In this document: piece by piece, positions 7,493 to 20,445 of the stretch | How positions within the stretch are numbered: the first letter of the stretch is position 1 | Layout: each line of letters opens with the position of its first letter | IMG/VR virus record: IMGVR_UViG_3300005527_003305 | Span: 1 to 20,445 of that record | From: a virus | Length of the DNA stretch: 20,445 nt | Reading direction: 5' to 3' (one strand) | Translations under genes and position numbers: made by a program | Notes under the pieces: model-generated | Database searches by the model: none | What the model saw: only the letters and a program-made list of their open reading frames with translations | Told to the model about the DNA's origin: nothing

Positions 7493-7524
7493 ACTAGAAA
7501 TTCACTTGTTATATGGAACTACGC

Positions 7525-7538
7525 ATATTTATTATAAA
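7525..7538 (+). promoter_or_regulatory. AT-rich promoter-like element, copy 2 (ATATTTAT-type)
   Basis: ATATTTATTATAAA lies 18 nt (start to start) before the ATG at 7543. It shares its core with the elements before 2930 and 9262. It would give the homing endonuclease its own transcript. Confidence 0.4.
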
Positions 7539-7542
7539 CAAT

Positions 7543-8301
7543 ATGCAAATTTATAAAACAACTAACTTAGTAAATTCAAAGATCTATATAGGAAAAGACG
7601 TTAAAGCTAGACCAAGTTATCTAGGATCTGGATTAGCACTAAAATCTGCTATTAAAAAGTATGGAGCTGAACTCTTTAAGAAAGAAGTGTTAGAGGATAA
7701 CATAATTGATAAGTCTGTATTAGCTAGTAGAGAGAAGTATTGGATAGCTTATTATAATTCTAACAATCCGAATATAGGTTACAATCTAACAAAGGGCGGA
7801 GATGGAGGAGATGTTTGTATAGGTAGAGTTACTATAAATAAAGATAACGTGGAAAAGAAAGTGGCTAAAAGTGAATTAGAGTTTTATATAAATAATGGAT
7901 GGAAGTTGGGATTAACAGAAGATCATAAATTAAATTGTAGTATTGGTCGCAAAGGCAAGGGTTTAGGAAAAGATAATGGAAATTATGGAAATCCCACAGG
8001 ATTTAAAGGAAATGCTACATCTTTCAAACCAGGAGAATTACACCCGATGTATAATAAAAAACAAAGTATAGACACTATTAATAAAAAAATTGAAACTAAA
8101 AGAAAAAACGGCACTTTATCAAATAACGGTTCAGAAAAAAGAAAAAAACCTATATTACAATACGATTTAAGCCACAATTTTGTAAAAGAGTGGTCGGGAG
8201 TTAGAGAAGCGATGAATGCATATAATCAAGCTAGAGTAGGCGACGTAGCAAATGGAAATGCTAAAACTGCAGCTGGATATTATTGGAAATGGAAAAATTA
8301 A
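7543..8301 (+). CDS. Free-standing GIY-YIG homing endonuclease
   Basis: A 252-aa protein with an N-terminal GIY-YIG nuclease domain: IYKTTN (residues 3-8), YIG (15-17), YLGSG (26-30), the likely metal-binding Glu in REKYWI (Glu64) and the GYNLTKGGDGG closing motif (79-89). It is followed by an RVTINKDNVEKKVAKSEL...GWKLGL segment (about 95-124) like the short NUMOD-type repeats of phage endonucleases, a Gly/Asn-rich region with HPMYNKK typical of NUMOD3 (about 140-173), and a C-terminal IENR1-like DNA-binding unit (ILQYDLSHNFVKEWSGVREA, 204-223). The frame is open from 7513, but the ATG at 7543 starts exactly at the nuclease fold. It stands between intact genes and no intron is seen. Its AT-rich composition suggests separate acquisition. 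Confidence 0.9.
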   Translation: MQIYKTTNLVNSKIYIGKDVKARPSYLGSGLALKSAIKKYGAELFKKEVLEDNIIDKSVLASREKYWIAYYNSNNPNIGYNLTKGGDGGDVCIGRVTINKDNVEKKVAKSELEFYINNGWKLGLTEDHKLNCSIGRKGKGLGKDNGNYGNPTGFKGNATSFKPGELHPMYNKKQSIDTINKKIETKRKNGTLSNNGSEKRKKPILQYDLSHNFVKEWSGVREAMNAYNQARVGDVANGNAKTAAGYYWKWKN

Positions 8302-9490: not shown

Positions 9491-10933
9491 ATGCTAGAAG
9501 GTTACATTGAAAAATCAAAAAGAAAAAAGATATTGTTGATGGGAGACGATCTTAGGATGCACTCCGGTATCGCAACAATGTCAAGAGAAATCGTGTTAGG
9601 TACCGCTCACAGATTCAATTGGGTAAATTTAGGTGCCGCAATCAACCATCCAGATTTTGGTAAAAGGCTGGATCTATCACAAGACACAAACAATGTTACA
9701 GGTTTGAGCGACAGTAGCGTTATGCTGTACCCGTCAAACGGTTACGGAACGCCAGAAGTAGTTAGACAACTTTTGGAGATAGAAAAACCAGACGCTATAA
9801 TGCTTTTCACAGACCCGAGATATTGGATCTGGTTTTTTCAAATGGAAAGCGAGATAAGAAAGAAAATACCTGTAATTTACTACCACATATGGGACGATTA
9901 TCCAGCGCCATTGTACAATTCTCCTTACTACGAATCTTGCGATTTACTCATGGGAATATCGAAGCAAAGTAAACTTATTAGCGAATTAGTGCTTGGAGAT
10001 AAAATCAAAGGAAAAATATCCACTTACGTTCCTCACGGAATAAACGAAAAGTACTTTTACCCGATAAATGAATTCATGGTAGAAGACTATAAAAAATTGC
10101 AAGATGAAAAAAAGGCGATTTTTGGAGAAGACATTCCAGAGTTTGTTGTGTTTTACAACGCAAGAAACATCAGAAGAAAGTGTACATCTGATCTCATAGC
10201 AGCTTATTCTGTATTCTGTGATAAAATAGGAAAAGAAAAAGCAAAGAAGTGCGCTTTATTGTTACACACCCAAGCTATTGATGAAAACGGAACGAACTTA
10301 AACGCAGTAACAGAATTGCTCTGCGATCCTGAGTATCAAAAAGTAAAATTCGTACAACACTCGCTACCCACGGATGCCATCAACAGGCTTTATAACATGG
10401 CAGACGTTACGGCTCTAATTAGCTCTAACGAAGGTTGGGGACTATCTTTAACCGAATCGATGATGGCTGGCAGAATGATCATAGGCAACGTGACTGGAGG
10501 AATGCAAGATCAAATGAGGTTCGAAGATGAAAAAGGTAAATGGGTCAATCTAACCAAAGACTTTCCTTCAAACCACTACGGCAGATACAAAAAGTGCGGT
10601 AAATGGGCAGTACCAGTTTTTCCAACTAATTTAAGCCTTGTTGGATCGATACCAACTCCTTACATATTCGATGATAGATGTGATTTTAGAGACGTTGCTA
10701 AAGCTATAGAAGACATTTACAACATGTCACCTGAAGAGAGACAAGAGCGCGGGCTGGCAGGAAGGGATTGGGTTACTTCAGAAGAGTCAATGATGAGCTC
10801 AAAAAACATGTGCAATAACGTTATATTTTCTATAGAAACAACATTCAAGAGTTGGAAACCAAAGAGCAAATTTGAACTCATAAAGATAGAAAAATTACCA
10901 AGAAAACAAATAAAACACAAACTAGTATACTAA
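9491..10933 (+). CDS. GT-B glycosyltransferase, GT4-like
   Basis: A 480-aa retaining-type GT-B glycosyltransferase. The N-terminal Rossmann domain has a KKILLMGDDLRMHSGIATMSREI opening (residues 12-34, with the G-I-A turn for the acceptor) and YYHIWDDYPAP (130-140). The linker holds YVPHGINEKYF (179-189), and the C-terminal nucleotide-sugar domain has FYNARNIRRK (221-230) and the GT4 E-x7-E motif EGWGLSLTE (314-322), followed by MAGRMIIG. Donor and acceptor are unknown. It lacks signal or membrane segments, so it works in the host cytoplasm. It is followed 2 nt later by a second GT of the same general class; the two are divergent rather than recent duplicates. Confidence 0.88.
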   Translation: MLEGYIEKSKRKKILLMGDDLRMHSGIATMSREIVLGTAHRFNWVNLGAAINHPDFGKRLDLSQDTNNVTGLSDSSVMLYPSNGYGTPEVVRQLLEIEKPDAIMLFTDPRYWIWFFQMESEIRKKIPVIYYHIWDDYPAPLYNSPYYESCDLLMGISKQSKLISELVLGDKIKGKISTYVPHGINEKYFYPINEFMVEDYKKLQDEKKAIFGEDIPEFVVFYNARNIRRKCTSDLIAAYSVFCDKIGKEKAKKCALLLHTQAIDENGTNLNAVTELLCDPEYQKVKFVQHSLPTDAINRLYNMADVTALISSNEGWGLSLTESMMAGRMIIGNVTGGMQDQMRFEDEKGKWVNLTKDFPSNHYGRYKKCGKWAVPVFPTNLSLVGSIPTPYIFDDRCDFRDVAKAIEDIYNMSPEERQERGLAGRDWVTSEESMMSSKNMCNNVIFSIETTFKSWKPKSKFELIKIEKLPRKQIKHKLVY

Positions 10934-10935
10934 AT

Positions 10936-12249
10936 ATGAAACCGTTATGCGTAATAAGCGCTCCAATAGACACTGCTAGTGGATACGGAGCCAGAGCCAG
11001 AGATTTTGTTAAAGCTCTATATGAATTGAAAAAAGATCAGTGGGAAATAAGATTGCTCTCACAGAGATGGGGTTCAACTGCTTGGGGATACATACAAGAA
11101 CACGAATCAACGTGGGGTTTTTTAAACAATCTTATGTTGCCAAACAACCAACTCACAAGACAACCCGATTACTGGTTTCAGATTACTGTACCTAACGAAT
11201 TTCAAAGAGTTGGAAAGCTAATGAATGTCGGATTGACAGCTGGAATAGAAACAACAATATGTCATCCGTCTTGGGTAGACGGGGTTAATAGAATGGACTT
11301 AACTCTAGTGTCTTCTGAGCACGCCAAAAACGTTTTTAAAAACTCACAATTCGAAGAGAGAGATCAACAGAACAATCTGAAGAGGAAGATATCCTTGGAA
11401 AAACCAGTAGAGGTGCTCTTCGAGGGACTTGACTTGAGTAGGTTTTTCTATATCGATGATAAAGACATACCTAAAACAGAAATAGCAGAATCTTTAAAAC
11501 AAATTAACGAAGAATTTAATTACCTATTTGTTGGCCACTGGTTGCACGGAGATAACGGAGAAGACAGAAAGAACATCTCAGGATTGATAAGGTTGTTTTT
11601 AGAAACATTCAAGAACAAGAAGAAACGTCCTGGTTTGATTCTAAAAACCACAAAGGTAGCTAACAGCGTGATGGACAGAGATGAAATCTTGGAAAAAATA
11701 GAGAGCATAAGAAACTCTATCAATTCGAACGATTTACCGAACATATATCTACTTCATGGAGATCTTAATGAAGAGGATATGAACATAGTTTACAACCACC
11801 CGAAAGTGAAAGCTATGGTGTATTTTGGACACGGCGAAGGTTTTGGTAGACCACTACTAGAGTTTTCGATATCTAAGAAACCCATTATAGCATCGGGCTG
11901 GTCGGGCCATCTAGATTTTCTTAACAACGAGTATTGCGTTCTAATACCGGGAGAATTAAAAAACATTCATCCATCTGCGGTAGTAGAAAACATATTGATA
12001 CCAGAATCCCAGTGGTTTAAAGTGGATGAAAAAGTTGCAAAAAAGTCTATGGAACAAGTCTACGAGAATTATAGCAAAGTAGTTTCTGAAAAATCCAGCA
12101 GACAATCCTATTACGTAAAGAGCAATTTTTCTTTTGAAAAAATGACTGAGAAACTTATGAACTACGTGGATGCTTTTCCAAAACCGGTAGAAGTAAAGCT
12201 TCCTACTCTCAAGAAAATTGAATTACCTTCTTTAAAAAAAATAGGATAA
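10936..12249 (+). CDS. GT-B glycosyltransferase, GT4-like
   Basis: A 437-aa glycosyltransferase. The N-terminal CVISAPIDTASGYGARARDF (residues 5-24) is the glycine-rich acceptor-side opening of GT-B enzymes. VLFEGLDLSRFFY (160-172) marks the inter-domain linker, FVGHWLHGDNGEDRKN (198-213) the C-terminal domain start, and GHGEGFGRPLLEF (298-310) the E-x7-E donor-phosphate motif, followed by KKPIIASGWSGHLDFL. Specificity is unknown. The extreme C-terminus is odd: KLPTLKKIELPSLKKIG is a tandem 8-residue repeat (LP[T/S]LKKI) after the fold ends, perhaps a membrane- or partner-binding tail. It lies between another GT and a small unknown gene with 1-2 nt gaps. Confidence 0.87.
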   Translation: MKPLCVISAPIDTASGYGARARDFVKALYELKKDQWEIRLLSQRWGSTAWGYIQEHESTWGFLNNLMLPNNQLTRQPDYWFQITVPNEFQRVGKLMNVGLTAGIETTICHPSWVDGVNRMDLTLVSSEHAKNVFKNSQFEERDQQNNLKRKISLEKPVEVLFEGLDLSRFFYIDDKDIPKTEIAESLKQINEEFNYLFVGHWLHGDNGEDRKNISGLIRLFLETFKNKKKRPGLILKTTKVANSVMDRDEILEKIESIRNSINSNDLPNIYLLHGDLNEEDMNIVYNHPKVKAMVYFGHGEGFGRPLLEFSISKKPIIASGWSGHLDFLNNEYCVLIPGELKNIHPSAVVENILIPESQWFKVDEKVAKKSMEQVYENYSKVVSEKSSRQSYYVKSNFSFEKMTEKLMNYVDAFPKPVEVKLPTLKKIELPSLKKIG

Positions 12250-12932: not shown

Positions 12933-13553
12933 ATGGCAACAATATCTTACGCGATTCCTGTTTGTAACGAACACGAAGAATTAGATAAACTACTGACTCT
13001 TTTAATTAAGTGTAAAAGAAAAGAAGACGACATAGTTATACAGTGCGATCAAGGAAATACAACAAAACAGGTGTATGAAGTTATATCAAAACACAGTGAT
13101 CACGTAAAAGTTGTGGAGTTTCCTCTTAAAGGAGATTTCGCAAGTTTTAAGAACAATCTAAAAAAACATTGTGTAGCAGATTGGATATTTCAAATAGACG
13201 CAGACGAACTACTGCACGAAGTATTTCTAGAAAATTTGCCTGAAATACTGGAAAATAATCCTGAAGTACAACTGTTTTGTCTTCCAAGAATTAACACCGT
13301 TGAAGGATTGACTCAAGACCACATAAACAAATGGGGATGGAGCGTTAACGAGAAAGGTTGGGTTAATTTCCCAGATGTTCAAACTAGAATAATCCAAAAT
13401 TCTCCAAAAATACAGTGGGTTGGTAAAGTACACGAAGTGATATATGGGCACAGTTCACAAGCAGTTTTACCAATTGAAGAGGCGTACTGTATACTACATC
13501 ACAAACACATTCGTAGACAAGAAATTCAAAATACGTTGTACTCAATGATATGA
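12933..13553 (+). CDS. GT2-family glycosyltransferase
   Basis: A 206-aa GT-A fold, inverting family 2-like transferase. ATISYAIPVCNEHEELDKL (residues 2-20) is the standard first strand and loop, IVIQCDQGN (35-42) carries the nucleotide-contacting Asp, and WIFQIDADELL (84-94) has the metal-binding DxD (Asp89-Ala-Asp91). The ending FPDVQTRIIQNSPKIQWVGKVHE (146-168) is the F.d.Q.R....  .i.W.g.vHE pattern of WaaE/LgtF-like subfamilies that transfer hexoses to lipopolysaccharide cores. At 206 residues it is short for the family but contains the catalytic domain. It ends in TGA. The next gene follows after a 46-nt AT-rich gap with a TATAAT-like box. Confidence 0.85.
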   Translation: MATISYAIPVCNEHEELDKLLTLLIKCKRKEDDIVIQCDQGNTTKQVYEVISKHSDHVKVVEFPLKGDFASFKNNLKKHCVADWIFQIDADELLHEVFLENLPEILENNPEVQLFCLPRINTVEGLTQDHINKWGWSVNEKGWVNFPDVQTRIIQNSPKIQWVGKVHEVIYGHSSQAVLPIEEAYCILHHKHIRRQEIQNTLYSMI

Positions 13554-13861: not shown

Positions 13862-15184
13862 ATGGTTACAGAAAAACAGATACTCGAACTTGTGGAAGAG
13901 TACATAAAACAAAAACACGGCCAAAAGTCTTGGAAAGCAGGAGAAGATTGGGTGCAGTACGCAGGTCCGTATTTTGATTCCGAAGAATACGTTGCAGCAG
14001 TAAAAACCCTTCTTGGAGAATGGTTGGTTTTGGGAGCGGAAGCGATAAAATTTGAACGTAAATTCCCAAAGAAGTTTGATAAAAGTTACGGTCTATTGAC
14101 TAATAGCGGTTCAAGCGCTAATCTTCTTATGATGTTAGCGATGACTTCTAAAAGATACAAGAACTTTCCGAAAGGCACAAAAGTAATTACGCCTATCGCA
14201 GGCTTTCCGACAACAATCAATCCAATACTTCAAGTTGGATTTACACCAGTTTTCGTTGATATAGAGTTAGAGACACTTAATTTAGACCTTGATCAGGTGG
14301 AGCAAGCTTGCATAAACAATCCTGATGCAAAGATAATAACTTTCGCTCACGTGTTAGGTAATCCTCCAAACATGAATAGGCTGATGGAGATTGTTAAGAA
14401 GTACAATCTAATACTGCTAGAAGACTGTTGCGATGCTTTAGGTTCCACTTACGAAGGCAAAGCTTTAGGTTCGTTTGGAGAAATGGCAAGTTGTTCGTTT
14501 TATCCTGCACACCATATCACAATGGGAGAGGGAGGTTTCGTAGCAATGAACGATCCACAGTTGGAGAGAATAGTGAGGAGCTTTAGAGAATGGGGAAGAG
14601 GTTGTTACTGCGTTGGAAAACAGAACTTACTTGAAAAGGGATCATGTGGTTGTAGGTTTAACAACTGGGTACCCAGCATACCAGACGAATTATTCGACCA
14701 CAAGTACGTTTACGAAGAGATTGGTTATAACCTAAAACCTATAGAACTTCAAGCTGCAATAGGGCTGGTGCAAATGAATAAATTGGAAGAGATAGGGCAG
14801 AAGAGAAAAGAAAACTATAAAAATCTGTTTAAAGCATTTGAGAAGTACAAGCAATATTTTCACTTACACGAAGCTCAACAAGGTGCAGACGTAGATTGGT
14901 TTGCTTTTCCTGTCACAGTAAAAGACGGAGCTCCATTCAAAAGATCAGACATTTGTAAGTTCTTTGAGTCAAATAAAGTGCAAACAAGACCGTACTTCGC
15001 TGGAAACGTTATGCTGCAACCAGCTTACGAAGGAATTATGGATCCAAAAGAGGTCATAGAAAAATACCCTGTAGCAAGAAAAGTTACGACAGACACTTTT
15101 TTCTTAGGTACTTCACCAGTAATTAACAAAGAGAAAGTAGATTACATAGAATCTGTATTAGATAAATTTATAGAACAGTTATGA
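13862..15184 (+). CDS. rfbH: RfbH/E1-type NDP-4-keto-6-deoxyhexose 3-dehydrase
   Basis: A 440-aa DegT/DnrJ/EryC1-fold enzyme of the RfbH (E1) branch, which uses PMP and a [2Fe-2S] centre to remove the C3 hydroxyl of an NDP-4-keto-6-deoxyhexose. Evidence: LTNSGSSANLLM (79-90) binds the cofactor phosphate. LLEDCCDALGSTYEGKALGSFG (185-206) contains the pyridine-N Asp. SFYPAHHITMGEGG (212-225) has His217 where aminotransferases have the Schiff-base Lys, the hallmark of 3-dehydrases. WGRGCYCVGK...GSCGCRFNNW (244-269, Cys248, Cys250, Cys262, Cys264) corresponds to the family's Fe-S cysteine segment; ColD lacks such a centre. The usual partner reductase is not in the window. It overlaps the next GT by 4 nt (ATGA). 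The nucleotide carrier (CDP or dTDP) is not decided. Confidence 0.88.
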   Translation: MVTEKQILELVEEYIKQKHGQKSWKAGEDWVQYAGPYFDSEEYVAAVKTLLGEWLVLGAEAIKFERKFPKKFDKSYGLLTNSGSSANLLMMLAMTSKRYKNFPKGTKVITPIAGFPTTINPILQVGFTPVFVDIELETLNLDLDQVEQACINNPDAKIITFAHVLGNPPNMNRLMEIVKKYNLILLEDCCDALGSTYEGKALGSFGEMASCSFYPAHHITMGEGGFVAMNDPQLERIVRSFREWGRGCYCVGKQNLLEKGSCGCRFNNWVPSIPDELFDHKYVYEEIGYNLKPIELQAAIGLVQMNKLEEIGQKRKENYKNLFKAFEKYKQYFHLHEAQQGADVDWFAFPVTVKDGAPFKRSDICKFFESNKVQTRPYFAGNVMLQPAYEGIMDPKEVIEKYPVARKVTTDTFFLGTSPVINKEKVDYIESVLDKFIEQL

Positions 15185-16164
15185 AAATTTGTTTTTTGAC
15201 GGAGATGGGTTTAGAAGGCAAAGTTCCAAGCAATCACACAAACATGAGGACAGAATTCGCTTGGATGTTTGCACTTGATGCTGATCACAGACACATAAGA
15301 AATTATCATAATGTTGTAGGATACGATCATGTTTTTATTATATTCCCAAAAGGCGAAGTGTATCTTAACGCTGTAGGTGGAAAGTTAGTAGATAAGAAAA
15401 ATCCGGTTAGCGATTTACTACATTCAGACTTCATAGAAGTATTAAAAAGCAACAACAAAAAGGTTCACTACGTTCAAGAAGGCCCGCACTGGTTATATAA
15501 CGACTATGAATTAGCGGATCAAATACAGTTTTATAACATGCTCTCTGGATGCGATTCTATATTCTCACACAACGAATCAGATGTACAGTACTATAGAGGC
15601 TTGCTTCCAACGAAACGAGTGCATGTGATGCCGACTTTAATGATAGAAAGCGTAATATCAAAAATACAGCAGAAGACAGAGGATAAGACGATAATCGGGG
15701 GAAACTTTGCTAGATGGTACGGAGGATTTGAAAGTTATATAGTAGCTCAAGAGTTTGAAGTGCCTATTTGGGGACAAACGTCCCATGCAACCAGAGACGG
15801 AGAGAGCCAATTAGTAAATTTACTCCCAAGAGTGATGTGGACTGACTGGATGATGCAGCTAAGTTCTTTCAAATATGCAGTACATTTGATGCCCACAGCT
15901 GCAGCAGGTACGTTTGGGTTAAACTGTGCGTACTTTGGCATACCGTGCATAGGAAACGAAGACGTAGATACACAGAGGTTGTGCCACCCCGATCTAGCAG
16001 TAAACGTCAAAGATATGAAAAAAGCCAGATCTTTGGCAAATAAGTTGAAGCAAGACGAGGGATTCTATGAACACTGTTCTAATTTAGCTATAACTAACTG
16101 CGAAAGATACTATAGTTTAAAACATTTTAACAACACACTTAAAAATATATTACATGAACAATAA
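15181..16164 (+). CDS. Probable GT-B glycosyltransferase
   Basis: A 327-aa protein with an N-terminal KICFLTEMGLEGKVPSNHTNMRTEFAW opening (residues 2-28) and a C-terminal half resembling the nucleotide-sugar-binding domain of GT-B enzymes: TIIGGNFARWYGG (170-182), VPIWGQTS, then SSFKYAVHLMPTAAAGTFGLNCAYFGIPCIGNEDVDTQRLCHP (about 233-273), with the small-residue turn and late acidic/polar motif. It lacks a clean E-x7-E signature, so the exact family is uncertain. It overlaps the 3-dehydrase by ATGA and the next transferase by 11 nt, pointing to tight coupling in the glycan operon. It could be a non-catalytic GT-fold protein. Confidence 0.65.
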   Translation: MKICFLTEMGLEGKVPSNHTNMRTEFAWMFALDADHRHIRNYHNVVGYDHVFIIFPKGEVYLNAVGGKLVDKKNPVSDLLHSDFIEVLKSNNKKVHYVQEGPHWLYNDYELADQIQFYNMLSGCDSIFSHNESDVQYYRGLLPTKRVHVMPTLMIESVISKIQQKTEDKTIIGGNFARWYGGFESYIVAQEFEVPIWGQTSHATRDGESQLVNLLPRVMWTDWMMQLSSFKYAVHLMPTAAAGTFGLNCAYFGIPCIGNEDVDTQRLCHPDLAVNVKDMKKARSLANKLKQDEGFYEHCSNLAITNCERYYSLKHFNNTLKNILHEQ

Positions 16165-16885
16165 ACATGTGTTAGTAATTACCGGTTGCGATGAAGCCAT
16201 GCATTCAGTGCTAGATCTTACTATACCTTCAAAATTAAGATACACTCAAAAACATGGATACGACTTTAATGTGCTGAGATCTTTTAGATCATTTCCGCAC
16301 ATAGGTGTAGATGCTAAAAACCCTATCGGTTTAGGATTTGCTCGTACCATACATGTATTTCAAATGTTAGAGCACTACGATGTTGTTATGTGGATAGATG
16401 GAGACTCTGTTATCACGAACGATAATTTTACAATAGATGATTTTATAAATGATCAACATACGATATATTTTTCTTACGATTGGCCTGTTGCTATGGACGG
16501 TAGTACTGGCCACGTTGGATTTAGTGGTGGTAATTTTATAATAAAATCCACAGAACACGTTGAAGAATTATATAGTACATTTATAGAATATAGTAAACAT
16601 TTCTTAAACGATCACGGAGCAGACCAAACGTGTTTAAACGTAATACACAATAACACACCACTTAGAAAGCACTACGGATTGTTAGAACACAAATACTTAA
16701 ACGCAGTGCCTGAGTTTATAACAAGAACTAGCGTGTGGCAAGCAGATCCAAATAGAACTGGTCCAAATAGGCGTTTTAGTATACCTTCTCCGTGGAATAA
16801 AGATTGTTTTCTTGCCCACTTAACCGGATGTAATACGGCTGACAGAATAGATTTACTACAAAACGAGTTCAAAGATTATTTGTAA
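16154..16885 (+). CDS. GT-A glycosyltransferase, GT34-like
   Basis: A 243-aa transferase resembling the GT34/GMA12-MNN10 group of retaining galactosyl/xylosyl-type enzymes. KHVLVITGCDE (4-14) begins the Rossmann-like fold. KLRYTQKHGYDFNVLRSF (27-44) is the 'ky.YC..hgYd' type segment. VVMWIDGDSVITN (77-89) holds the DxD metal site (Asp82-Gly-Asp84). GFSGGNFIIKST (122-133) and DHGADQTCLNVI (153-164) match the acceptor/product region, and FLAHLTG (219-225) supplies the late metal-binding His222. It is closely packed with neighbours (11 nt overlap upstream, 1 nt gap downstream). Acceptor and sugar are unknown. Confidence 0.75.
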   Translation: MNNKHVLVITGCDEAMHSVLDLTIPSKLRYTQKHGYDFNVLRSFRSFPHIGVDAKNPIGLGFARTIHVFQMLEHYDVVMWIDGDSVITNDNFTIDDFINDQHTIYFSYDWPVAMDGSTGHVGFSGGNFIIKSTEHVEELYSTFIEYSKHFLNDHGADQTCLNVIHNNTPLRKHYGLLEHKYLNAVPEFITRTSVWQADPNRTGPNRRFSIPSPWNKDCFLAHLTGCNTADRIDLLQNEFKDYL

Positions 16886-16886
16886 T

Positions 16887-18536
16887 ATGAAACAAAATAA
16901 GTTCAAAATAATAATCGCGTCTTATAACAATGAAGATTGGGCATATTACAATATAGTTAGTGTGCTCAATCAAACTTATAAAAATTTTAATGTAGTTTAT
17001 GTTGATGACTGTTCTACAGATAATACCAATTCAATAGTATCTGATCTTATAAAAAATGATAATAGATTTAATCTTATAAGAAACAAAACAAATCTTGGAG
17101 CCGATGGAGGAGCAATATATAACTATATTAGATTTTACGAATCGCTAGAAGACGAAGAGATATGTGTATCTATGTGCGGAGATGATTGGCTGATAGATGA
17201 AAATGTATTAGAGAATCTAAATAACTACTACAACAAGTACGATGTTTGGATGACATACGGAGAATTCTATGTTTACGATGGGTCAGAGGATGTTTTAAAA
17301 GCCAATCCACAAAATACCCCATATCCAGACTTTGTGCATCAATATAAGCTATATAGAAAAGACATATGGAGAGCAAGTCATTTATTAACTTTTAGGGGAT
17401 TTTTAGCAAAAAAGATAGATCTTAATGATATAAAATCAAGATACAATAACAAGTGGTTTTATCATGCACCTGACTTAGCTGTTGCTTATCCGTGTTTAGA
17501 AATGTGTCCAAAAGAAAAGATAGGTGTTGTTGATTTTCCAACATATGTTTGGAATTCAAGCGAGCAGTGTCAAGTAAGAACTAGGCACAGAGAGTCTGAA
17601 GACAACATGAAATATGAAATCGAAATTAGAAACAAAAAACACTACAAGGAGGGTTTAACTGGAGAAAAATTACCTCAGATAAACGCTATTGGTGGAAGTA
17701 GAGAAAACAACGATATACCAAAAGATTTTACTTATGTGTATAATATGCGTGATGGAGAATTTGATGCTGTCATAATACCTGATATGGAGATCATTAGATA
17801 CATTGAAGGGCAAATATGCATAGACAAGAAGTGTCCAGTGATAGCTGATATACACGAACCTCCTTATTTGTTTGAGCAACAGAGAGTTTACGATACTGTA
17901 TACAAAAACTATAAGATGTTTGATCGTATACTCACTTACGATGAAAGACTACTAACACTACCAAACGCAGTATTCAGAAACGGAGGGTACGAATGTGTAT
18001 TAAATAAAAGCGTACACACTGAAGAATATCCGACATTATCAGACGCCAGTCTATATTCAATATATGATAAAAGTAAAAGCGTATCTATAATAAGTTCGAA
18101 CAAAACATTTACGGATGGCCACAGATACCGCGTATCTTGCGTAGAATTAATAAGGCGTAACGATCAGAGTGTGGACATTTATGGAATGGGTTATAACCCA
18201 ATAAATGGAAAATTGATCGGTTTAAAAGATTATAAGTATTCTATCGCTATAGAAAACGGTGTATATAAAAACTATTTTACTGAAAAAATATTGGATTGCT
18301 TTTTAACAGGCACTATTCCAATCTATAGGGGATGTACAAACATTTTAGATTTTTTTAATCAAAAAGGAATAATTACTTTTGATACCCATGAAGAGCTTTT
18401 AGAAGTATTAAAAACAATAAGAAATGGTGGTTATGATATAGACAAGACAATTATAGAGGAGAACTACGAATTGGCTTTGAAGTATCGATACGACAATGAT
18501 AAGATATTTAATAAATACATAAAAGATTTAATATGA
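16887..18536 (+). CDS. Bifunctional glycosyltransferase: GT2 domain fused to GT10 fucosyltransferase-like domain
   Basis: A 549-aa fusion. Residues 1 to about 230 form a GT2 domain: FKIIIASYNNEDWAY (6-20), VVYVDDCSTDNT (36-47), NLGADGGA (69-76), SMCGDDWLID (95-104, with the metal-binding Asp pair) and WMTYGEF. Residues from about 285 resemble GT10 alpha-1,3/4-fucosyltransferases: FDAVIIP (292-298), then DYKYSIAIENGVYKNYFTEKILDCFLTGTIPIYRG (448-482), which contains the ENxxxxxYxTEK donor-binding motif (Glu456-Asn457, Thr465-Glu466-Lys467) and the following G-T-I-P-I-Y strand. Donor is predicted to be GDP-fucose-like or a related deoxysugar nucleotide. The AT-rich N-terminal region differs slightly in composition from flanking genes. 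It overlaps the dehydratase gene by ATGA. Confidence 0.87.
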   Translation: MKQNKFKIIIASYNNEDWAYYNIVSVLNQTYKNFNVVYVDDCSTDNTNSIVSDLIKNDNRFNLIRNKTNLGADGGAIYNYIRFYESLEDEEICVSMCGDDWLIDENVLENLNNYYNKYDVWMTYGEFYVYDGSEDVLKANPQNTPYPDFVHQYKLYRKDIWRASHLLTFRGFLAKKIDLNDIKSRYNNKWFYHAPDLAVAYPCLEMCPKEKIGVVDFPTYVWNSSEQCQVRTRHRESEDNMKYEIEIRNKKHYKEGLTGEKLPQINAIGGSRENNDIPKDFTYVYNMRDGEFDAVIIPDMEIIRYIEGQICIDKKCPVIADIHEPPYLFEQQRVYDTVYKNYKMFDRILTYDERLLTLPNAVFRNGGYECVLNKSVHTEEYPTLSDASLYSIYDKSKSVSIISSNKTFTDGHRYRVSCVELIRRNDQSVDIYGMGYNPINGKLIGLKDYKYSIAIENGVYKNYFTEKILDCFLTGTIPIYRGCTNILDFFNQKGIITFDTHEELLEVLKTIRNGGYDIDKTIIEENYELALKYRYDNDKIFNKYIKDLI

Positions 18537-19501
18537 AAAAAATAGTATACGTTACAGGTTGTCTAGGTTTTATAGGATCTTACGTAACAAGGAAATGTTT
18601 AGAACTCGGTTGGTATGTTAAAGGAGTTGATAAGATAACTTACGCGGCTAATAAAGATTTGCTTACTGAGTTTAAGAAAAATAAGAACTTTTCGTTTGTA
18701 CACTGCGATATAAACGAATTGACTTTTCTTTACGATTGCGATTATGTGATAAACACGGCTGCCGAAACACACGTAGGTAATTCTATAATGAGTAGTTTAG
18801 AATTTGTAAAATCAAATATAGATGGCGTACACAATTTACTTGAGTTAATAAAAAACTATAGAAGCGAAAATGGCAAAAAACCAGCGTTGATACATTTTAG
18901 CACAGACGAAGTTTATGGAGATATAGAAAGCGGAGATCATTACGAAACAGACACGCTAAAACCTAGTAACCCATACTCAGCTACAAAAGCGGCCGCAGAC
19001 ATGCTCGTTATGGCTTGGGGAAGAACTCACAATATCCCATACATGATTGTTAGACCTACAAATAATTACGGAATGGGTCAATATGTTGAGAAACTCATAC
19101 CAAAAGCAATAAAGTTTTTGAATATAGGTAGGAAAATACCTTTACACAATAACGGAGAACCCTATAGAAACTGGTTACACGCAGAAGATACTGCTACTGC
19201 AGTAATTACATTAATCGAAAAAGGAAAAATAGGAGAGATATACAACGTAGCTGGTGGATTTGAACAACAGAATATAGATACTATAAAAAAGATAATTACA
19301 GAGTACGTAGAAATAGCAAACTGGCAAGACTTTTACGACATAGAACATTACGTAGATTTCTCTTGCGACAGACCTGGTCAAGACGTACGCTACGCATTGA
19401 ACGATGATAAACTAAGATCTTTAGGTTGGTCACCAAAAAAACAGTTTGATGCAGAATTAAAACATATTGTAAATTATTATAAGAACAAATTTGTATGGTA
19501 A
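18533..19501 (+). CDS. NDP-glucose 4,6-dehydratase, RmlB-like
   Basis: A 322-aa extended short-chain dehydrogenase that converts an NDP-hexose to its 4-keto-6-deoxy form with bound NAD+. The NAD motif is VTGCLGFIGS (7-16). VDKITYAANKDLL (32-44) and CDIN follow as in RmlB. The catalytic Thr-Asp-Glu is in STDEVYG (Thr124, Asp125, Glu126), and the YxxxK pair is in NPYSATKAAADM (Tyr148, Lys152). RPTNNYGMGQ (174-183), YRNWLHAEDTATAV (211-224) and CDRPGQDVRYALNDDKLRSLGWSP (278-301) are the late RmlB signatures. These motifs favour dTDP-glucose over CDP-glucose, but the nucleotide is not proven, so no symbol is assigned. It overlaps the following gene by 7 nt. It is the probable first step feeding the 3-dehydrase. 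Confidence 0.88.
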   Translation: MKKIVYVTGCLGFIGSYVTRKCLELGWYVKGVDKITYAANKDLLTEFKKNKNFSFVHCDINELTFLYDCDYVINTAAETHVGNSIMSSLEFVKSNIDGVHNLLELIKNYRSENGKKPALIHFSTDEVYGDIESGDHYETDTLKPSNPYSATKAAADMLVMAWGRTHNIPYMIVRPTNNYGMGQYVEKLIPKAIKFLNIGRKIPLHNNGEPYRNWLHAEDTATAVITLIEKGKIGEIYNVAGGFEQQNIDTIKKIITEYVEIANWQDFYDIEHYVDFSCDRPGQDVRYALNDDKLRSLGWSPKKQFDAELKHIVNYYKNKFVW

Positions 19502-20445
19502 AAGTTAGTGATTTAGTGGCAGAGTTTCTGGTAGAAAAGAAAATACAGGTTGCTTTTGGAATAATAGGATCTGCAAATTCACACATATTTGATTCAATAT
19601 CGGATAAAGGTTACACAAAAGTAGTGTACGTTCACCATGAGCAAGCAGCAGTGATGGCAGCGGGGTCTTACTATAGGGCCACTGGAAAAATATCTGCGGC
19701 TATAGTTACTGCTGGAGCCGGATCAGCAAACGCGATAACCGGAGTCATTAGTAATTGGGCTGATTCTATACCGTGTTTAGTAATATCAGGACAAGAATCC
19801 ACAAAATATATAAAAGAGCATGCCAACTTAAGGATGATTGGAACTCAAGGTTTTGATGTAGTTGAGATGGTTAAACGCGTTACAAAGTATGCTAAGACTG
19901 TTATAGATAAGAATGAAATAGTCAAGTGTCTTAACGAAGCATGTAGTTTTGCGCTTAGTGATAGACACGGTCCTTCATGGATAGATGTTCCTTTTGATAT
20001 ACAAAGTGCATTTGTAAATAAAGAAGAACTTGAAGTGTTTGAAGAACCCAAATCAGATCTTACAGCTGTAAGCGTTAAAGAATTACTAGATTTGTTAAAA
20101 ACCTCAAAAAGACCAGTAATATTAGGAGGATACGGCATAAAGGCGTCAAATAGTCAAAAAGAATTCGATAGTCTAGTAAGATCATACAAAATACCCGTCT
20201 TACTATCTTGGTCAGCTATAGACGTACTATCCCACGATCACCCGTATAACTTCGGAACTTCTGGACTTTACGGACAGAGGCGAGCTAACTTCATATTACA
20301 GAATTGTGATCTATTGATAGTGCTTGGTAGTAGATTGGCTTTACCTCAAACGGGATACAACATAGATAACTTTGCACCAAACGCAAAAATTATTATGGTT
20401 AACAACGACCGAAATGAATTAGATAAGTACGCAAATAGATACGAC
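19495..20445 (+). CDS. TPP-dependent acetolactate synthase-like enzyme, partial (C-terminus beyond window)
   Basis: 317 codons are visible, with no stop before the window end. The N-terminal pyrimidine-binding domain is intact: VKVSDLVAEFLVEKKI (2-17), FGIIGSANSH (21-30), and HHEQAAVMAAGSYYRATG (47-64) with the catalytic Glu49 that activates the thiamine ring. VTAGAGSANAITGV (71-84), then a central FAD/ADP-like domain (SKRPVILGGYGIKA, LLSWSAIDV, LIVLGSRLALPQTG). LRMIGTQGFDVVEMVKRVTKYA (112-133) resembles the LPS-cluster branch of this family rather than biosynthetic AHAS. In yersiniose biosynthesis a homologue (YerE) adds an acetyl unit from pyruvate to an NDP-4-keto-3,6-dideoxyhexose; that role is inferred here from context. 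Starts with a 7-nt overlap. Confidence 0.85.
   Translation, partial: MVKVSDLVAEFLVEKKIQVAFGIIGSANSHIFDSISDKGYTKVVYVHHEQAAVMAAGSYYRATGKISAAIVTAGAGSANAITGVISNWADSIPCLVISGQESTKYIKEHANLRMIGTQGFDVVEMVKRVTKYAKTVIDKNEIVKCLNEACSFALSDRHGPSWIDVPFDIQSAFVNKEELEVFEEPKSDLTAVSVKELLDLLKTSKRPVILGGYGIKASNSQKEFDSLVRSYKIPVLLSWSAIDVLSHDHPYNFGTSGLYGQRRANFILQNCDLLIVLGSRLALPQTGYNIDNFAPNAKIIMVNNDRNELDKYANRYD

Follow-up and report, generated by a model that had tools for sequence, protein, structure and literature searches.

A phage gene run pairing an RfbH-type dehydrase and an RmlB-like dehydratase with a YerE-like carboligase, with a predicted role in branched deoxysugar biosynthesis

The biosynthesis of yersiniose in Yersinia depends on the gene set RfbF, RfbG, RfbH, RfbI, YerE and YerF. 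In this study, we have analysed a stretch of viral DNA, the IMG/VR record IMGVR_UViG_3300005527_003305 (the window; it spans the entire viral record, 20,445 bases), in which a sugar 4,6-dehydratase, an RfbH-type 3-dehydrase and a YerE-like carboligase dependent on thiamine pyrophosphate (TPP) lie, as in the yersiniose system, in what looks like one operon. The phage set differs from that system in having an RmlB-like dehydratase instead of RfbG as well as aldolases, while RfbF, RfbI and a clear YerF were not found. According to a 2025 review, no decarboxylase subclass other than the YerE-like enzymes is known to act on isolated ketones (PMC12247030; here and below, the cited papers are drawn on in excerpt). 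Their members include ErwE of the erwiniose pathway, which favours 4-hydroxy-2-oxo acids and makes no use of pyruvate, and MMAR_2332 of the caryophyllose pathway (PMC12247030), as well as JanthE from Janthinobacterium sp. HH01 (structures 8rph, 8rpi and 8rpj), which uses 4-hydroxy-2-oxovalerate, with benzaldehyde as the acceptor tested (PMC12188165, PMC12247030). The excerpts state that the physiological substrates of JanthE are not yet identified (PMC12188165), that no sugar structure is known for the vast majority of YerE-like enzymes, and that viruses belong to the unexplored ground for this class, which is treated as bacterial (PMC12247030). Single genes of the kind described here have been listed in viral surveys, namely rfbH (PMC10653327), acetolactate synthase together with rfbG (PMC8226683) and 4-hydroxy-2-oxovalerate aldolase (PMC13303688), as far as the excerpted text goes. 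Within the open-access literature, where some search results were swamped by unrelated papers, we found no report of a phage YerE-like enzyme and none joining these auxiliary genes. Our finding is that YerE-like enzymes occur in phages together with an aldolase partner that predicts their donor.

The TPP gene is the last gene of the window and is cut by the record end. Another record of 70.5 kb, IMGVR_UViG_3300008448_000057, shows no difference from the window over the compared stretch, which covers 20,427 of the 20,445 bases, and runs on past its end; one stretch of it (L001) supplies the full TPP gene and the genes downstream. This longer record was taken to be a phage because it also encodes gp32-like and UvsX-like proteins, DnaB, a DNA polymerase and a ribonucleotide reductase. 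The three enzymes start at positions 13862, 18533 and 19495 on the + strand, as originally predicted, and in the last third of the window, + strand genes abut or overlap one after another from 13862 to the TPP start (the gene at 15181 begins within 13862-15184, that at 18533 within 16887-18536 and that at 19495 within 18533-19501), an arrangement consistent with a single operon (Table 1). Three open reading frames between dehydrase and dehydratase, encoding p327, a GT34-like protein and a GT2 + GT10-like protein, were absent from the earlier listing. The family matches of the three enzymes are not due to chance (best E-values with NCBIfam models of 2.5e-142, 1.3e-90 and 1.3e-59); gene content, family membership, active-site residues and gene order with its conservation are direct observations.

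Table 1. Features of the window and of the overlapping 70.5-kb record (L001 coordinates)
Feature	Coordinates	Strand	Length	Evidence or remark
Island glycosyltransferase	9491..10933	+		phrog_2170, 60.9 bits
Island glycosyltransferase	10936..12249	+		phrog_2170, 55.8 bits
GT2 glycosyltransferase of the glycan island, upstream of the dehydrase	12933..13553	+		PF00535, 36.7 bits (cut-off 23.3)
RfbH/E1-type pyridoxal phosphate, [2Fe-2S] 3-dehydrase	13862..15184	+	440 aa	NF011936 and 3bcx matches; His and four Cys; phage RfbH clade
p327	15181..16164	+	327 aa	No family match; homologues in several related phage islands
GT34-like glycosyltransferase	16154..16885	+	243 aa	PF05637, 41.9 bits (cut-off 23)
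Two-domain glycosyltransferase, GT2 + GT10-like	16887..18536	+	549 aa	PF00535, 65.4 bits; PF00852, 36.4 bits; both above cut-off
RmlB-like NDP-hexose 4,6-dehydratase	18533..19501	+	322 aa	TIGR01181, 303.7 bits (cut-off 365.1); virus-only clade
YerE-like (JanthE-like) TPP carboligase, 5' part of gene	19495..20445	+	317 aa	TPP_enzyme_N and _M; whole gene L001:10001-11767, 588 aa
HpaI1 (HpcH/HpaI aldolase)	L001:11764-12468			Next after the TPP gene
HpaI2 (second, divergent HpcH/HpaI protein)	L001:12458-13213			
LdpA-like Fe-S protein	L001:13215-14375			Two 4Fe-4S motifs
HAD phosphatase	L001:14368-14745			
Short-chain dehydrogenase/reductase (SDR)	L001:14742-15662			
FkbM methyltransferase	L001:15634-16281			
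GT2 glycosyltransferase	L001:16247-17569			

The identity of the TPP enzyme carries most of the argument. Its best solved match is JanthE (8rph, 488 bits, covering residues 2-578 of 588), followed by acetolactate synthases at 270 and 227.5 bits. In a tree of 77 rows, which like those of all our trees were hand-picked for spread, with JanthE included and the YerE, ErwE and MMAR_2332 sequences left out, the window's enzyme falls within a JanthE-like clade with 100% support in the SH-like approximate likelihood ratio test (SH-aLRT) and, inside it, within a mostly phage clade (99%) that also holds one Flavobacteriaceae sequence. A more careful tree of 25 rows recovers the JanthE-like clade with 100/100 support and leaves open how the phage TPP rows group with one another. 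The prediction had named in advance, as outcomes that would tell against it, a placement with true acetolactate synthases or with glyoxylate carboligases; the trees gave neither, and its assignment of an acetolactate-synthase-fold enzyme of the YerE type stands in the sense that the enzyme groups with JanthE, itself YerE-like. Two glyoxylate carboligases (L272 and L281, which pass the corresponding model with 1149 and 1176 bits against a cut-off of 711) form a clade of their own outside the 58-row set holding the window's enzyme in the 77-row tree, and this identity was rejected. That the phage encodes an acetolactate synthase aiding branched-chain amino acid synthesis of the host is suggested by the best NCBIfam models, since the 25 models shown are mostly acetolactate synthases; all of them, however, score under cut-off, the best hits far so (325 against 738, and 311 against 538), forcing the window's clade together with acetolactate synthases in the 25-row tree costs 87.8 log units (approximately unbiased test, p = 4.5e-56), and the active-site residues differ, so that scores, tree and test reject this identity and we regard the idea as scarcely credible.

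Active-site residues point the same way. The positions named for JanthE are V121, Y268, P293, Y297 and K567 (PMC12188165, in excerpt), and at these five the clade of the window's enzyme (clade A) reads T, Y, P, Y and K in 7/7 rows, whereas none of the 11 acetolactate synthases shares a JanthE residue at any of them, four positions being substituted and one falling in a gap. The window's enzyme is therefore like JanthE in near-whole length, in clade and in four of five active-site residues. It differs in being encoded by a phage and not by a bacterium, and at the thiamine diphosphate motif, where JanthE has CDG(G) and six of the seven clade-A rows have GDG(S). The CDG motif of JanthE has been called unique or uncommon in the excerpts (PMC12188165, PMC12247030); we find it in 15/18 bacterial rows (two of the 18 being paralogues of another subtype) and in 17/17 rows of the sister phage clade (clade B), while its first place in clade A is G in 6/7 rows and A in one. 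Three Pseudomonas clusters (L120, L123 and L127) carry tandem TPP genes, the first of another subtype (31-33% identity to the window's enzyme) beside a JanthE-like one. Compared with 50,697 named phage records, the TPP enzyme has best hits of about 32-34% identity, which are acetolactate synthases where annotated; no named record holds a close YerE-like enzyme.

The genes that follow the TPP gene suggest what its donor might be. Relatives were sampled as the best 80 of 167, 80 of 94 and 80 of 89, to which all frequencies refer, and neighbourhoods were counted once per distinct TPP protein where either flank extends for 3 kb or more (7/7 in clade A, 49/61 in clade B, 12/14 in a third phage clade, C, and 59/80 in bacteria). 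The aldolase gene HpaI1 lies directly 3' of the TPP gene in 7/7 clade-A loci, where DmpF/DmpG were found in 0/7. Clade-B loci instead carry genes for an acetaldehyde dehydrogenase (DmpF) or a 4-hydroxy-2-oxovalerate aldolase (DmpG) in 42/49 cases, with DmpF (41/49) at the position that HpaI1 takes in clade A; in one phage, L030, both proteins score above the cut-offs of their models (acetylating acetaldehyde dehydrogenase for DmpF, 4-hydroxy-2-oxovalerate aldolase for DmpG). In the other 7 of 49 clade-B loci (L180, L181, L182, L184, L186, L187 and L191), neither RfbH, RmlB-type nor DmpF/DmpG genes were found, and a DegT protein that also bears the His but is distinct from RfbH lies nearby; this protein in L180 and L182 reads SFYASHVITAGG, and that of L180 scores 275 against 423 on the RfbH model. 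JanthE-like bacterial loci (L091-L170; the locus of JanthE itself is not among them) likewise differ from phage clade A, having a DmpF/DmpG partner (DmpF or DmpG in 56/59) where the phages have one of the HpaI type. Thus, two enzyme types able to make 4-hydroxy-2-oxo acids from pyruvate appear to alternate at one place after the TPP gene, and we infer that the TPP donor is a hydroxylated 2-oxo acid. The bacterial pairing predicts 4-hydroxy-2-oxovalerate as the likely natural donor of JanthE-type enzymes, which would supply the physiological donor that has been missing for them.

HpaI1 resembles class II pyruvate aldolases, and its residues H32, R57, E131 and D158, which align with YfaU, are invariant in 8/8 HpaI1 rows; we take the first two to be catalytic and the last two to bind the metal. 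Since its scores are far under the exact-function (equivalog) cut-offs (68.5 against 368.8), the exact type of aldolase was left unassigned. The second aldolase-like protein, HpaI2, keeps E105 and D133. In clade C, one TPP gene is directly followed by a gene for PanB (3-methyl-2-oxobutanoate hydroxymethyltransferase, above cut-off; L033:15541-16467), perhaps a third route to a donor.

Because HpaI-type aldolases follow the TPP gene, pyruvate is less likely to be the source of a two-carbon branch, and the branch made by the phage is probably hydroxylated and longer than the two carbons of yersiniose. This would agree with ErwE and MMAR_2332, compared here by enzyme descriptions and not by gene clusters, which are YerE-like enzymes favouring the hydroxylated longer 2-oxo acids that an HpaI aldolase would supply; they differ in their bacterial hosts and, for erwiniose, in a sugar built on cytidine diphosphate (CDP), as excerpted from PMC12247030. 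Several observations weigh against a hydroxylated donor: (i) pyruvate is also accepted by JanthE (PMC12188165, PMC12247030, in excerpt); (ii) an acylating aldehyde dehydrogenase of the DmpF type, which could supply HpaI1 with aldehyde, was found in 0/7 clade-A loci; and (iii) HpaI2, LdpA-like and HAD genes lie beside cytidylyltransferase genes without TPP or RfbH in the covered stretch (L253, L256 and L260), so that the aldolases may serve another keto-acid sugar. The first and third of these would suit a yersiniose-type branch proper, in which pyruvate would be the donor for the TPP enzyme, the branch would be a two-carbon acetyl unit and the aldolases would serve a separate, ulosonate-like sugar, as would a further set apart from a TPP gene in L303, a small cyanobacterial genome, where HpaI2-LdpA-HAD occurs with HpaI and a cytidylyltransferase-like gene of the 3-deoxy-manno-octulosonate (KDO) type. 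We consider this unlikely, as HpaI1 directly follows the TPP gene in every clade-A locus, where the sister clade has DmpF, and as locus L006 has HpaI1 after its TPP gene though HpaI2, LdpA and a window-like HAD were not found there. The HpaI2, LdpA-like (a TIM-barrel protein with two 4Fe-4S motifs) and HAD genes travel together in L001:12458-14745, L253, L256, L260, L254, L259 and L303; the cytidylyltransferase of L253 and L256 is of the CTP_transf_3 family, and that of L260 exceeds two KDO-cytidylyltransferase subfamily cut-offs.

The two enzymes that would prepare the acceptor are encoded in the same gene run as the TPP enzyme, which is thereby paired with 4-keto-deoxysugar genes (RfbH and RmlB). 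The pyridoxal phosphate enzyme passes the curated NCBIfam model for RfbH over its whole length (NF011936, 474.6 bits, cut-off 423), and its best solved structure is E1 (3bcx, 344.6 bits), with ColD at 176. Its Schiff-base position is His (YPA-H217-H), aligned with K in the 3bb8 chain, and Cys 190, 248, 250 and 262 align with the E1 cysteines, completing the four-cysteine [2Fe-2S] set; YPAHH and the four Cys recur in each of the motif patterns listed for phage RfbH, which cover 115 of 133 rows. The 33 phage rows of the RfbH tree, in which one bacterial row is unstable (L134_4704) and ColD is unplaced, group together with an SH-aLRT support of 98%, and E1 and the bacterial RfbH proteins stand beside them. 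The enzyme is an RfbH/E1-type 3-dehydrase by these marks, predicted to make a 3-deoxy-4-keto sugar, which bears out the earlier description of an Fe-S dehydrase with His replacing the Schiff-base Lys.

The dehydratase is an extended SDR with STDEVYG and YxxxK, which we take to be its functional motifs. Its best model is that for the dehydratase of deoxythymidine diphosphate (dTDP)-glucose, TIGR01181, at 303.7 bits, below the cut-off of 365.1; the CDP-glucose model gives 81.4. In the RmlB tree, all 25 rows from phages fall into a clade of viral sequences alone (99%), which lies next to, though separate from, 8 host RmlB rows (95%), with 10 bacterial RfbG rows very distant (100%). The predicted RmlB-like 4,6-dehydratase thus holds as to family, with the dTDP type nearest, and falls short of the TIGR01181 cut-off. 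The score leaves the nucleotide unproven, which counts against a confident pathway assignment; with this reservation, dTDP would be preferred over CDP. Similar dTDP-glucose 4,6-dehydratases are known from phages such as Klebsiella phage 05F01, and 274 of the 50,697 named phage records match that of the window (the top rows at about 39% identity; some of these records are bacterial DNA). A phage-type RmlB, defined by at least 40% identity, was found in 58/68 phage TPP loci and in 0/59 bacterial loci, a threshold under which a host-type RmlB would fall.

A different division of labour would have RmlB and RfbH make a plain 3,6-dideoxyhexose while the TPP enzyme and aldolases act on a different ketone. 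Some TPP loci lack RfbH, and of the 65 distinct phage RfbH proteins whose downstream side covers 8 kb or more, 26 have no TPP gene in the counted stretch, although at least four of these (L024, L044, L047 and L056) have one further along the record (L211, L196, L213 and L204). Where RmlB is adjacent, however, 34 of 40 distinct junctions have the TPP start and the RmlB stop fused in one overlap, ATGGTAA, and besides the frequent company of RmlB-type genes at phage TPP loci, RfbH occurs in 56/59 bacterial relatives; a separate fate for the two halves of the gene run seems to us quite improbable.

Of the 65 phage RfbH genes, 57 have an RmlB-type gene within reach and 39 a TPP gene. The type of this neighbouring TPP gene is unclustered on the RfbH tree (clade A, 6 changes over 6 rows, with a shuffled mean of 5.9; B, 10 over 11, with 10.2; C, 7 over 8, with 7.7). 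On the RmlB tree, types B and C are interspersed (9 changes over 11 rows and 7 over 8), and type A clusters to some degree (4 changes over 6 rows, as low in 7/500 shuffles). We read these patterns as recombination of an RfbH/RmlB core with TPP and donor modules among phages. Tentatively, and with slightly more doubt than confidence, we propose that environmental phages share a virus-specific RfbH and RmlB-like core for a 4-keto-3,6-dideoxyhexose and swap YerE-like TPP modules that each bring their own keto-acid-making partner (HpaI, DmpF/DmpG or perhaps PanB), which would make the phages a combinatorial source of branched sugars. If phages do swap modules in this way, their branched sugars could keep virion or host-surface glycans changing in an arms race and include structures unknown in bacteria. 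Three of the seven clade-A loci weigh against the pathway proposed below: L006 is without RfbH and has another His-bearing DegT protein, in L004 the covered stretch ends within a DegT gene of which just a piece is present, and a phage-type RmlB is lacking in L010, which does have RfbH.

The E1 reductase and the nucleotidyltransferase that the original prediction thought might lie past position 20445 were not found on the 70.5-kb record, with neither a Fer2 nor an NTP_transferase match. A Fer2-type reductase (E3) was found in 0/45 related viral records, that one included, with a control matching in 12/14 genomes; these records are fragments, in which absence is not proof. NTP_transferase occurs in 10/45 viral records. 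With Pseudomonas proteins that score above the CDP-glucose models' cut-offs as references and thresholds of 38-40% identity, RfbF and RfbG were each found in 0/68 phage TPP loci, against 54/59 and 52/59 bacterial loci. No clear YerF was seen; the one SDR downstream is of the general epimerase type (L001:14742-15662). The lack of an E3 match and of a clear YerF speaks against the pathway proposed below, and with no dedicated E3 found, RfbH would need electrons of the host. The lack of Fer2 matches could also mean that the pyridoxal phosphate enzyme is another 4-keto-sugar enzyme, for example a transaminase, whose product the TPP enzyme branches or to which it is unrelated; since the Schiff-base His and intact cysteine set argue for dehydrase chemistry, we find this very improbable. 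Host ferredoxin systems reportedly can serve related dehydrases (SpnQ).

The LdpA-like protein was considered as a dedicated stand-in for E3 and rejected, as it lies near only 6/65 phage RfbH genes and occurs without RfbH in the covered stretch of L253, L256 and L260. Its predicted structure (mean pLDDT 73.2) resembles a TIM barrel, into which an Fe-S segment modelled with poor confidence is inserted, and matches to the fold are only broad, e.g., Rubisco and tryptophan synthase. Homologues were found in 140/244 genomes of the phylum of Cyanobium, taken to include true LdpA, and in 0/247 and 0/398 genomes of the phyla of Flavobacterium and of a Burkholderiaceae genome, respectively, a complete lack of matches to which we give little weight. 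None of the five neighbourhoods of LdpA-like matches that were read has a labelled TPP-cassette gene.

Taken together, we consider it moderately probable that the early part of a pathway to a C4-branched 3,6-dideoxyhexose with a hydroxylated, longer branch is encoded by the phage. What each enzyme acts on, in which direction and sequence, and where the sugar is attached are inferred as follows: (i) the RmlB-like enzyme would make a nucleoside diphosphate (NDP)-4-keto-6-deoxyhexose, probably from host dTDP-glucose, given the lack of an NTP_transferase match on the 70.5-kb record; (ii) the RfbH-type enzyme would strip the 3-hydroxyl with electrons from a host ferredoxin or reductase; (iii) HpaI1, as a class II pyruvate aldolase, would couple pyruvate and an aldehyde to a 4-hydroxy-2-oxo acid; (iv) the YerE-like enzyme would decarboxylate this acid and add the acyl unit to the C4 ketone, yielding a tertiary alcohol whose hydroxylated branch is longer than that of yersiniose; and (v) the SDR may reduce or epimerise the product, FkbM may methylate it, and glycosyltransferases would attach the sugar to the virion or to a host-surface glycan. 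The yersiniose-type chemistry originally foreseen is largely upheld as a pathway class; the two-carbon branch is now less likely, and neither a Fer2-type reductase nor CDP-glucose genes were found in the records and loci counted above. The downstream genes on the 70.5-kb record, which could have belonged to an unrelated pathway, fit sugar branching. Surveys that label such genes acetolactate synthase or 4-hydroxy-2-oxovalerate aldolase may misread them as amino acid metabolism.

As to where the sugar goes, glycosyltransferases flank the enzyme set, and a homologue of the GT2 upstream of the dehydrase lies within 10.5 kb of 43/65 phage RfbH genes. No match to p327 was found in Pfam, NCBIfam or PHROG. 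Beyond the last GT2 of L001 follow an HNH-like and then a RecA/UvsX-like protein. In a 106-kb phage record, an RfbH-TPP-HpaI1-HpaI2-LdpA-HAD run (L010:7700-14720) stands directly after the gene for the major head protein (phrog_2522), which suggests capsid decoration in that phage; if sugars of this kind decorate virions, phages would be making a glycan of their own and not a copy of that of the host.

The same virus as in the window also carries a TonB-dependent receptor-like gene with Plug and OMP_b-brl_3 domains (L325:11203-13455), unusual cargo for a phage, followed by a gene that is lipoprotein-like by eye (L325:13452-14657). Receptors of this type are presumably associated with Bacteroidota, and from this gene and the Flavobacteriaceae TPP sequence among those of phages, our guess is a Bacteroidota host. 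Elsewhere in the window lie a phage-type GroEL-like chaperonin gene (321-1943, phrog_5725) and, at 7513-8301, a homing endonuclease gene that adjoins a phage exonuclease gene near that for thymidylate synthase.

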